Below are positions 1 through 36,017 of a stretch of DNA of 37,438 nt, one piece after another. The position numbers and the translations under genes are program-made. The number at the start of each line of letters is the position of its first letter. Positions within the stretch are counted from its first letter, which is position 1. The notes beneath the pieces are model-generated. The model made no database searches, was not told the origin of the DNA, and worked only from the letters and a program-made list of their open reading frames with translations. Origin of the DNA: Marinifilum sp. D714 (lineage in GTDB: Bacteria > Bacteroidota > Bacteroidia > Bacteroidales > Marinifilaceae); the NCBI RefSeq assembly GCF_030851345.1, contig NZ_JALPNU010000031.1, positions 1 to 37,438 of the forward strand, read 5' to 3'.

Positions 1-7
1 TTAAGTA

Positions 8-51
8 TATATTTGCAGTACCTATTAGGGAATAATCAATCTAATATTCCC
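8..51 (+). promoter_or_regulatory. Orphan promoter-like motif followed by a hairpin
   Basis: TATATTTG at 8-15 matches the Bacteroidota -7 consensus TAnnTTTG. It is followed by an inverted repeat, GGGAATA (28-34) with TATTCCC (45-51). Any -33 element would lie outside the window. The motif is short and expected by chance many times in AT-rich DNA, so this is weak. The hairpin could instead belong to the end of a gene left of the window. Confidence 0.2.
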
Positions 52-90
52 CAAATTTAAGTAATAATCTGTCAAGCTATTTTAGGAAGG

Positions 91-512
91 GTCAGGAATT
101 TGCAAGAAACAGCTTCTCAGCTTCAAGAAGTAGGCTTCCTATGCCTAGAAATAGACTTCCAACTCTAAGAAATAGAGTTCACTGCTCAATCTATTGACTT
201 TCTGCCATAAGAACTTGACTTCAAGTTCTAATCTATAGACTTCCACCTTCAAGATATAGAACCTTAACTTCAAGAAATGACATTCCAGTTTTAATCTTTA
301 TACTTTCGACTTCGAGAAATGGACTTTGAGAAGATATCGATGCACTTTCAAATTAATGTAATAGGCTTCATGTCCCAATCAATGCCCATTCGGATCCATT
401 CATTACACTTTTAACTACTCGAAATATACTTTCGAATTTAATCGATACACTTTTAGCTCCTAAAAATTGACCTTGAGGTTCATTCAACAAAGTTTATGAG
501 TTAAGAAGTTTT
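91..512. repeat. Degenerate tandem array, 21-bp period, about 20 units
   Basis: A short core CTTC or CTTT, usually preceded by GA or CA, recurs at 113, 135, 156, 177 (GTTC), 198, 219, 240, 282 (ATTC), 303, 324, 345, 366, 387 (CATT), 408, 429, 450, 471 (CCTT) and 492 (GTTT). Spacing is 21 bp throughout except for one 22-bp step at the left end; the unit at about 261 has a slightly displaced core, but its second half is in phase. The second half of each unit is usually either CAAGAAATAGA-like or TAATCTATAGA-like. A partial unit lies at 91-112. Units differ a lot in sequence, yet spacing is kept almost without insertion or deletion. There is no intact reading frame across the array. Function unknown. 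Confidence 0.85.
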
Positions 513-3582: not shown

Positions 3583-5430
3583 ATGAAGATTGAAATCGAT
3601 CCTAATGCTGGCTTTTGTTTTGGTGTAGTAAATGCCATAAACAAAGCTGAAGAAAATTTAAGTAAAGATGGTCAAATGTATTGTATTGGCGATATCGTTC
3701 ATAACAGCATTGAGGTTAATCGTCTAAATGATTTAGGATTACAAACAATCGAACATGATGAGTTCAAAGGAATAAAGGAAAGGAAAGTACTGTTTCGCGC
3801 GCATGGCGAACCACCTTCATCTTATCGTATTGCAAAAAAGAATAAGATGGAAATTGTTGATGCCACTTGTCCGGTAGTGTTAAACCTTCAAAAAAGAATT
3901 AAGAAGTCATTCCGCGAACTTAAAAAGGTAAATGGGCAAATTCTCATTTACGGAAAAAAAGGTCATGCCGAAGTGAATGGATTAGTAGGTCAAACCAATG
4001 GTAAGGCAATTGTTATAGAAACAGCCAAAGACCTAAAATCGGTTAACCCTGATTTACCAGCAGAATTATTCTCACAAACAACCAAAACTCTTGAAGGGTT
4101 TAATTTGCTTCGTGAAGAATTACAGAAAATAATGAAGGCTCCATTTAAAGCTCATGACACAATATGTCGTAAAGTTGCAAATAGAGTGCCTTTAATTAAA
4201 GAGTTTGCGCAAAAACATGATGTAATTGTTTTCGTAAGCGGAAAGAAAAGTTCTAATGGAAAATTACTATTCGATGTTTGCAAAGGCATAAATCGAAATA
4301 GCTATTTCATATCAGAACCACAGGATATTGACATCAGTTGGTTTGTCAATGCAAAATCGGTTGGTGTTAGTGGAGCAACATCTACTCCTGGTTGGTTAAT
4401 GAACGAAATTACTGAGAAAATCAAACTTGAAAATAAAATAAATATTAGCATGTCAAGAATTAAGAAAATTGGTGTACTTACATCAGGAGGGGATGCTCCA
4501 GGCATGAACGCGGCGATTCGAGCAGTTGTTCGAACTGCAATCTTCAACAAACTTGAAGTTGTAGGTATTAAACAAGGTTACGAAGGCCTTATTAATGGTG
4601 ATTTCAAAAAAATGAAATCTCACGATGTAAGTAACATCCTTCAAAAAGGAGGTACTATTCTTCGTTCGGCAAGAAGCGAGGAGTTTAGAACCGTTGAGGG
4701 AAGACAGAAAGCTTATCAACAAATGCTTGATAACAAAATCGATGCCTTGGTAGTAATCGGTGGTGATGGTACTTTTTCGGGAGCTCGTATCTTTACACAA
4801 GAACACGATATTCCAGTTGTTGGTATCCCAGGAACCATTGATAACGACTTGTATGGTACCGATTATACTATTGGATACGATACTGCTATCAATACAGTAA
4901 TCGATGCTGTTGATAAAATTCGCGACACAGCAAGTGCTCACAACCGTTTATTCTTTATTGAAGTAATGGGACGTGATGCTGGTTTTATTGCATTGCGCAG
5001 TGGTATTGCTACTGGTGCTGAGGCAATTTTGATACCTGAGAAAGAAACTCACGCTAAAGAATTACAAGCTTACCTTGAAAAAGGTTATAAAGAGCACAAA
5101 TCAAGTGGTATTGTAATTGTTGCCGAAGGTGATAAATCTGGTGGTGCATATACAATTGCCAAGGAAATTGAAAAAGAACATCCTGAATATGACATTCGTG
5201 TGTCAGTACTTGGTCACATGCAGCGTGGTGGTTCTCCATCAGCATTCGACCGCGTAACTGCTTCTACATTGGGTGTTGCTGCTGTTGAAGCATTATTGGA
5301 TGATCAAAAAAGTATAATGGTAGGAATGGTTCATGGTGATGTTACACACGTTCCTTTCAACAAAACCATTAAGAACAAAAAGAAAGTTAAGGATACATAT
5401 CTACATATCAACGAAATCCTTTCTATCTAA
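3583..5430 (+). CDS. Fused IspH (LytB) - ATP-dependent 6-phosphofructokinase
   Basis: One uninterrupted frame of 615 codons covers two complete enzymes. Residues 1-about 283 are IspH, the Fe-S enzyme reducing HMBPP to IPP and DMAPP in the last MEP-pathway step: cluster cysteines in GFCFGV (C12), DATCPVV and HDTICRKV, plus GHAEV and the SSNGKL signature. Residues 290-615 are PfkA: LTSGGDAPGMNAAIRA, GGDGTFSGA, catalytic PGTIDND, MGRDAGF and GHMQRGG; glycines in GGDGT and PGTIDND indicate the ATP type. The junction reads KLENKINIS then MSRIKKIG; the ATG at 4450 is where a free PfkA would start. Whether the product is a fusion, or PfkA is also made from the internal start, is unknown. A single-base gain in the A-run at 4434-4437 could explain loss of the ispH stop. 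Confidence 0.9.
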   Translation: MKIEIDPNAGFCFGVVNAINKAEENLSKDGQMYCIGDIVHNSIEVNRLNDLGLQTIEHDEFKGIKERKVLFRAHGEPPSSYRIAKKNKMEIVDATCPVVLNLQKRIKKSFRELKKVNGQILIYGKKGHAEVNGLVGQTNGKAIVIETAKDLKSVNPDLPAELFSQTTKTLEGFNLLREELQKIMKAPFKAHDTICRKVANRVPLIKEFAQKHDVIVFVSGKKSSNGKLLFDVCKGINRNSYFISEPQDIDISWFVNAKSVGVSGATSTPGWLMNEITEKIKLENKINISMSRIKKIGVLTSGGDAPGMNAAIRAVVRTAIFNKLEVVGIKQGYEGLINGDFKKMKSHDVSNILQKGGTILRSARSEEFRTVEGRQKAYQQMLDNKIDALVVIGGDGTFSGARIFTQEHDIPVVGIPGTIDNDLYGTDYTIGYDTAINTVIDAVDKIRDTASAHNRLFFIEVMGRDAGFIALRSGIATGAEAILIPEKETHAKELQAYLEKGYKEHKSSGIVIVAEGDKSGGAYTIAKEIEKEHPEYDIRVSVLGHMQRGGSPSAFDRVTASTLGVAAVEALLDDQKSIMVGMVHGDVTHVPFNKTIKNKKKVKDTYLHINEILSI

Positions 5431-35846: not shown

Positions 35847-35920
35847 TTCAATTGGAAACTTTCTTAATGTTTTAAGCGGTTTTTACGTTCACATTTCATT
35901 TACCCATTTGAGCAGACTAT

Positions 35921-36017
35921 TGCCCTCGATAGGAGCATACCCCTGCCCTCGGCAGAAGCATGATCCTGCTCTCGATAGAAGCACGCCCCTGCTCTCGGTG
36001 TAAGCATGCCCTTGCTC
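35921..36017. repeat. Tandem array of 23-bp units, four copies plus a stub
   Basis: Units start at 35921, 35944, 35967 and 35990, with the first five bases of a fifth at 36013. Each reads TGCYCTCG, then a variable ATAG/GCAG/GTGT step, then RAGCAYG or similar and a C-rich end. Units 1 and 3 share CTCGATAG, units 2 and 4 share CTCGG, suggesting a 46-bp higher-order period. The array is GC-richer than its flanks, is not coding (23 is not a multiple of 3), and lies between convergent genes. Confidence 0.85.

Follow-up and report, generated by a model that had tools for sequence, protein, structure and literature searches.

A non-coding array with a 21-bp step in Marinifilum sp. D714 and its relation to tracts upstream of a nameless gene family

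The window analysed here is the whole of contig C30 (37,438 bp) of the draft genome of Marinifilum sp. D714, which comprises 4.77 Mb in 105 contigs. Its left end holds an array of 21-bp units followed by a DUF1801-like gene (Table 1). An earlier note on this DNA had placed the array ahead of the DUF1801 gene and within a gene-free stretch of more than 500 bases. The adjacency was borne out, but the neighbour that matters is a different gene at the parent locus, referred to below as gene X. Bases 1–94 belong to an insertion sequence, of which they form one end, so that the first base of the array is 93 or, if positions 93–94 are part of the insertion sequence, which is possible, 95. A small DUF7793-like gene (under the Pfam cut-off) lies between the array and the DUF1801-like gene in M. 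flexuosum and also in D737, and is missing from the window locus. No open reading frame for gene X was found in the window.

Table 1. Features of the window, numbered from its first base.
Feature	Position	Strand	Remarks
Right end of the insertion sequence that apparently splits the array	1..94	+	Imperfect terminal inverted repeat; 100% copies elsewhere
21-bp-period array	93..510	+	About 20 diverged units; autocorrelation, unit model
Array consensus GACTTTCAGCTTCAAGAAATA, alternating with GACTTnnnnnTTCAATCTATA (42-bp dimer)	93..510	+	Unit consensus
Part colinear with the gene-X array on contig C50, indel-free	93..327	+	82% identity, same genome
DUF1801-like gene, 126 aa	559..939	+	Downstream neighbour of the array; just under the Pfam cut-off
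Second tandem array, period 23/46	35920..36017	.	Between convergent genes; outside the main finding

Elsewhere in the window, positions 3583–5430 encode IspH (LytB) and 6-phosphofructokinase as one 615-codon open frame, which was matched nearly full length in Marinifilum, Labilibaculum, and Dysgonomonas records. A conserved dispersed element of about 100 bp (..CTACAAAACAATAATCCCT..AACAAAGC..AATATTTTACA.., L003:2472–2578, with copies in L162–L178) occurs in Marinifilum and Labilibaculum. Several of its copies lie upstream of lipoprotein-like genes, and it is possibly a promoter family. In D737 (L177, from about position 1290), a copy of this element is followed by an approximately 41-bp tandem array (CATTGACGAGAGC...), as judged by eye.

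The autocorrelation of positions 91–512 was compared with that of 500 dinucleotide shuffles over lags 5–129. The z values were 8.7, 11.3, 9.8, 8.7, and 9.6 at lags 21, 42, 63, 84, and 105, respectively, and the top value in any shuffle was 4.1. The 21-bp periodicity claimed in the earlier note is thus real. The peak at lag 42 exceeded that at lag 21, because two unit types alternate in the array, ending in ..TTCAAGAAATA and ..TTCAATCTATA and having the consensus sequences GACTTTCAACTTCAAGAAATA and GACTTnnnnnTTCAATCTATA. One unbroken 21-bp register runs through 93–510. The note had also described a CTTY core recurring every 21 bp from 135 to 492; the lack of any register shift was confirmed, but CTTY was exactly in register at only 12 of the 18 sites. 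Within the window array, CTTY occurs mostly at phases 0 and 7. The match of the unit model inside the window spans 114–487, and Tandem Repeats Finder (TRF) missed the array at 93–510. A 7-bp sub-period was absent on average over 20 different 21-bp units, one of them being a typed consensus, and a heptamer origin of the 21-bp units was rejected on this ground; lag classes 6–7 and 14–15 were mildly raised in the a and b arrays of Marinifilum. When units were scored for palindromy, 15 of 53 qualified at p up to 0.05, mostly from genus g16 and none from Marinifilum.

Positions 1–95 and 1–94 recur at 100% identity at two other places in the genome, one of which is a contig end. With ends reading TG..CA, the insertion sequence stops at 94 and has a 3-bp direct repeat, GGA, on both sides; the alternative boundary at 92 gives a 4-bp direct repeat, CAGG. 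In the comparisons made, homology to relatives starts at 93. On contig C22 the upstream side of the locus runs as far as ...AAAGAAATAGGCAGG and is followed by an inverted-repeat end resembling the one in the window; about two further array units lie on C22 beyond the insertion sequence. Judged from these junction sequences, an insertion sequence split the array in this strain and broke the assembly there, under either boundary.

One further copy of the array was found in the same genome, at C50:332199–332433, with 82% identity over 235 bp (about 11 units) and without gaps. Both arrays, that of the window locus and the C50 type, are present in M. flexuosum (G001) and M. fragile (G003). In D737 (G002) and M. 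breve the window's locus holds an array whose units are partly or wholly different and whose 21-bp register is kept. Related arrays thus occur in close relatives, and an array is present at the window locus in all five close species seen. No array was found at this locus in two outgroups: in M. caeruleilacunae the DsbD_2-like gene is followed by 93 bp, and in Marinifilum sp. N1E240 only 2 bp lie between the DsbD_2-like and DUF1801-like genes. An array search of G004 (a genome 80% complete) gave no match, nor did phage and plasmid records searched with the window array.

Sixteen genomes were searched with a four-unit sequence model, 150 of more than 4000 candidates being scored per genome. At E below 1e-4, the model found two loci in each of G000, G001, and G003 and three in D737; outside these genomes the best match had an E of 6e-4. 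The search of relatives suggested earlier therefore did yield related arrays, at few loci (2–3) per genome. The D737 array on contig C61 has the same unit consensus as the window array and a unit order unrelated to the window's, and all 21 of its units have A at position 15. Column conservation in C61 correlated with that in the b array (rho 0.57, p 0.006); the value for the window array was lower (rho 0.37, p 0.10). Contig C75 of D737 (L206) carries a 21-bp array that is 75% colinear with C61 and is followed by a 219-codon gene unlike X.

A gene of 232 codons that matches no Pfam family, which we call gene X, begins about 260 bp downstream of the C50 array, and the C61 array of D737 lies upstream of a gene-X homologue, 68% identical. 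Among 13 X loci from Marinifilum and N1E240, 11 have an upstream tract with a period of 21 or 42 bp; the other two are a locus at a contig edge in G004, where about five 21-bp units can be seen by eye, and a 29-codon fragment. Several of the X tracts have quite different units, for example ..GATTCAGTAGACTTGAATTTC.. before a 49–50% paralogue. A second X subfamily, of about 310 codons, has a C-terminal carboxypeptidase-regulatory-like domain (PF13715/PF13620). At the M. fragile b-locus (L019/L231, G003 C37) gene X is present as two overlapping frames, as if frameshifted, and the gene-X matches of Marinifilum sp. N1E240 (L086) and G011 (assigned to another genus, g8, of the family) are identical.

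With a nine-member alignment at E 1e-8, X homologues were found in 35 of 295 Bacteroidales genomes, our own included; in a separate search, a single genome had as many as nine matches. The order-wide set consisted of 30 loci, one per genome, from these 35 genomes; it includes the C50 parent locus, and 28 of the loci have at least 300 bp upstream. The results showed an upstream tract at 22 of the 30 loci (19 of period 21 and three of period 42) and none of any other period. Two loci have only a downstream period-21 tract. The remaining six show no tract beyond the gene itself; two of them have less than 100 bp upstream and one has 344 bp. A second set, with several loci per genome, contained 30 loci, of which 18 were scored, the remaining 12 being already examined or duplicates. 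Here, the period of the upstream tract is 21 or 42 at 13 of the 18 loci, 43 at one, and 36 at one; the other three loci lack an upstream tract and are all in G094, a genome with many arrays.

Altogether, an upstream 21/42 tract is present at 35 of 48 scored X loci and lacking at 13. In control pieces of 1.5 kb, such tracts were found in 10 of 434 and 1 of 212, and tracts of any period in 15 and 6, respectively; the former pieces come from Marinifilum, Labilibaculum, related named stretches, and G033, and some of them contain the a-locus array itself, and the latter come from 20 other family genomes. Two of 82 control pieces of 3.6 kb contained a tract, with periods of 22 and 11. The median distance from tract to X start is 136 bp. 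A further X frame, which has a tract of period 42 on its upstream side, was encountered in L077, a stretch taken for another purpose. The unit consensuses are mostly unrelated between loci: only 14 of 528 pairs exceeded the 99% shuffle limit, and these are chiefly from orthologous or paralogous loci. The earlier observation of spacing kept and sequence lost thus recurs in the gene-X tracts.

When nine X members were compared with the toxin families ToxN, TenpN, and CptN, no match was found with Pfam, NCBIfam, or PADLOC, and X showed no match to toxin families above a weak chance level. One X member searched against plasmid records gave no match, and two scans found no confirmed viral contig with gene X.

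The converse association is weaker. In stretches that had not been fetched for X, 34 tracts of period 21 or 42 (a-locus arrays included) have no X within 2 kb, in a scan that used a shorter window and whose thresholds missed L077. At E 1e-6, no gene X was found in six genomes of the array-rich genus g16 (64–84% complete) or in G007, G009, G015, and G032. Among TRF arrays of at least 55 bp in the order-wide stretches, 41 of 66 have a period of 21 or 42, in a sample biased in that G040, G045, G007, G094, G019, G035, G050, G009, and G089 were chosen via 21-bp-periodic query matches and G029 as a genus mate; the corresponding number in controls was 0 of 8. None of the 66 has a period of 15–20, 22, 24–26, 28–31, or 33–40, and 18 lie inside open frames of at least 250 codons. 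In G000, G001, G015, G032, G033, and G037, 5 of 10 arrays with periods of 10–130 are of 21 or 42 bp. Single stretches from 20 other family genomes, one of which (G020) had periodic-query matches elsewhere, gave two arrays alone, of 22 and 18 bp, and hence 0 of 2 at 21/42. The neighbouring genes of the arrays are tandem in 22 cases, convergent in 11, and divergent in 8, versus 248, 79, and 103 for all gaps, with arrays at contig ends and four inside open frames set aside; no clear orientation preference emerged. Genus g16 (L043–L054; G040, G045) has dense long arrays; in many of them the 42-bp units are palindromic, and many lie at contig ends. In L102 (G009), several satellites, with periods of 14, 21, and 49 bp, occupy a region of about 7 kb. 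The 42-bp array L105 had no sequence relatives in 149 genomes, an empty result that shows little. Thus, X usually comes with an array, and the presence of an array does not mean that X is there.

Between species, the arrays differ at 3.5–14.7% of positions, their own flanks at 1.2–21.4%, and four-fold sites at 13–20%. The unit sequence is therefore not clearly held; it appears hardly constrained, drifting about as fast as the flanks. The register seems to behave differently. Five pairwise comparisons summed gave no off-register indels in arrays beside 219 substitutions, and four pairs summed gave 27 indels beside 388 substitutions in other non-coding sequence, the pairs not being independent of each other. 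In one species pair, indels and substitutions numbered 0 and 106 in the array versus 10 and 167 elsewhere (Fisher p = 0.015). Length changes did occur as whole units: 21 bp (one unit) is missing in M. fragile, and 42 bp (two units) is duplicated in M. flexuosum. The description of the array as essentially free of indels therefore holds for the compared arrays, and the missing off-register indels argue, with moderate strength, that the register is held.

In anatomical terms, we consider it very probable that the window array is a non-coding duplicate of a gene-X-linked array, and that X homologues usually have a 21/42 tract upstream. The window shows the step and the colinearity of such an array and lacks the X frame; the most fitting description is a colinear orphan copy, from which X would have been lost or at which it was never present. 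As to function, we tentatively favour, at somewhat less than even confidence, a cis-acting, helically phased multi-site platform that would control gene X. The platform might reside in the DNA or in a leader RNA, with two helical turns per step, and a protein would assemble cooperatively on the array and thereby control the gene. The X protein is the most economical candidate for the assembling protein, so that the platform would serve X or a partner. Selection would hold the step and each site could drift, because the task would be spread over many weak sites, which would evolve together with the local protein. This reading is preferred since it is consistent with the location of the tracts ahead of X, with their two-turn spacing, and with the scarcity of off-register indels; the constant 15th base of C61 and the column correlations between arrays also count in its favour. 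The absence of X beside the window array itself speaks against it, as do the weak constraint on unit sequence, the 21/42 tracts without X, the 13 X loci that lack such a tract upstream, and the open frames over some order-wide tracts. The phased binding sites proposed in the earlier note are a possible candidate reading of the window array, and its interpretation as a whole is partly supported.

Several known systems resemble parts of this arrangement. Type III toxin-antitoxin loci have near-identical RNA repeats directly upstream of a nuclease-toxin gene. The X loci likewise have an array directly upstream of a protein gene, which the window locus does not, but their units are diverged, the window array has no predicted RNA fold, and a toxin match is absent. 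Iteron and partition-site arrays of plasmids consist of direct repeats about two turns apart beside the gene of a binding protein; unlike these, the X-linked arrays are chromosomal, their unit sequence is not conserved, and neither the array nor one X member matched plasmid records.

Within the literature searched, the nearest array described in the order is the BrickBuilt MITE of Porphyromonas gingivalis, also a member of the Bacteroidales, which is an intergenic array with a step of about two turns and degenerate units (PMC4596501). The same paper describes a 23-bp array, mentions 22- and 41-bp arrays too, and reports 19 dispersed copies with one unit sequence, a leader, a tail, and terminal inverted repeats (PMC4596501); PMC5771137 mentions BrickBuilt as well. 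The second array of our window has about the period given for BrickBuilt. In the X-linked arrays, by contrast with BrickBuilt, the step is common and the sequence mostly is not, and the array is associated with a gene family; a unit sequence dispersed in many copies through a genome was not seen, the unit model having found 2–3 loci in each of G000, G001, G003, and D737. Heptamer repeats are reported to be the most abundant intergenic type in prokaryotes and to have no known function (PMC6344855), and TAACTGA repeats are reported from some Bacteroidetes (PMC4679880). Our arrays are likewise intergenic and 21 is 3 x 7, but they differ from the heptamer repeats in the absent average 7-bp sub-period. 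In the mainly open-licence literature searched, we found no description of 21-bp arrays of this kind, and gene X is nameless.

The main rival to a phased platform is that the arrays are functionless minisatellites, which slippage or misaligned repair in Bacteroidales would make and trim in two-turn steps; the sites near X would then be merely permissive, or X would take part in making the repeats. We grant this explanation a real, if minority, chance. The predominance of periods 21 and 42 among the order-wide TRF arrays, the palindromic, unrelated units of genus g16, where no X was found, the length changes by whole units, and the evolution of array sequence near the flanking rate are all in its favour. 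It leaves unexplained, however, why an upstream tract accompanies one gene family at 35 of 48 loci, and the single stretches from 20 other family genomes yielded only two arrays, of 22 and 18 bp. Short two-copy duplications gave no clear result either way. A two-turn mutational process thus explains the X-less arrays better, but not the link to X. It is improbable that the array is instead transcribed ahead of X and works through its repeat RNA, arranged as in type III toxin-antitoxin systems. The layout matches, with a tandem array followed by a short gap and a protein gene, yet the folding of the window array as RNA was no better than that of shuffles (z -0.78 and +0.22 for the two strands), that as single-stranded DNA had a z of -1.37, Rfam gave no match at the gathering score and one far below it, the units are too diverged for a common RNA fold, and X lacks a toxin-family match above a weak chance level.

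The possibility that the array is the passenger of a BrickBuilt-type transposable element, with leader, tandem repeats, and tail, is very unlikely. A leader-like repeat of about 100 bp does stand directly before arrays b and C61, as well as dispersed elsewhere, and a 23-bp array is part of BrickBuilt (PMC4596501). Most of the leader copies examined, however, show no 21-bp array behind them, several being upstream of other genes, and the arrays have kept orthologous positions. By eye, neither terminal inverted repeats nor a common tail could be made out at the array borders, the terminal inverted repeat in the window belonging to the unrelated insertion-sequence end alone. Slightly less credible still is a coding repeat of seven residues, now a relic in the window, or an intrinsically curved tract, both of which the earlier note had put forward. 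The numbers invite the former, since 21 bp make 7 codons and 42 bp make 14, and the plus frame of the window array reads LQEIDFQ-like heptads. At the order-wide X loci, 14 of 24 tracts lie within an open frame of 75–210 codons, as a stop-free 21-bp unit alone would give, and 10 have no covering frame; we therefore limit the statement that the arrays are non-coding to those of the window and C50, in which stops occur in all six frames and which differ from each other at 17, 13, and 13 sites over the three codon positions, without bias. As for curvature, a wedge model predicted the window array to be straight: the 420-bp array fell at the 1.6th percentile, straighter than 98% of the window, and 126-bp windows had a mean at the 13th and a largest value at the 52nd. 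Both suggestions were dropped for the window array.

If the phased-platform reading is carried further, X and its upstream array may be parts of a single genetic system, with geometry and not sequence specifying the nucleic-acid partner. We give this extension a minority chance. The fixed 21-bp (two-turn) step would be kept, whereas each locus could have a unit sequence of its own. The role of X would be to read or build sites at regular intervals, and an orphan array like the one in the window would be a trans target or a detached copy. Were it true, the Bacteroidales would possess an uncharacterised protein family with a nucleic-acid element whose sole common feature is the length of its step. 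It would also offer a handle on the puzzle of the fixed period in many prokaryotic intergenic repeats, as posed in PMC6344855, and X and its array would be a directly testable pair.
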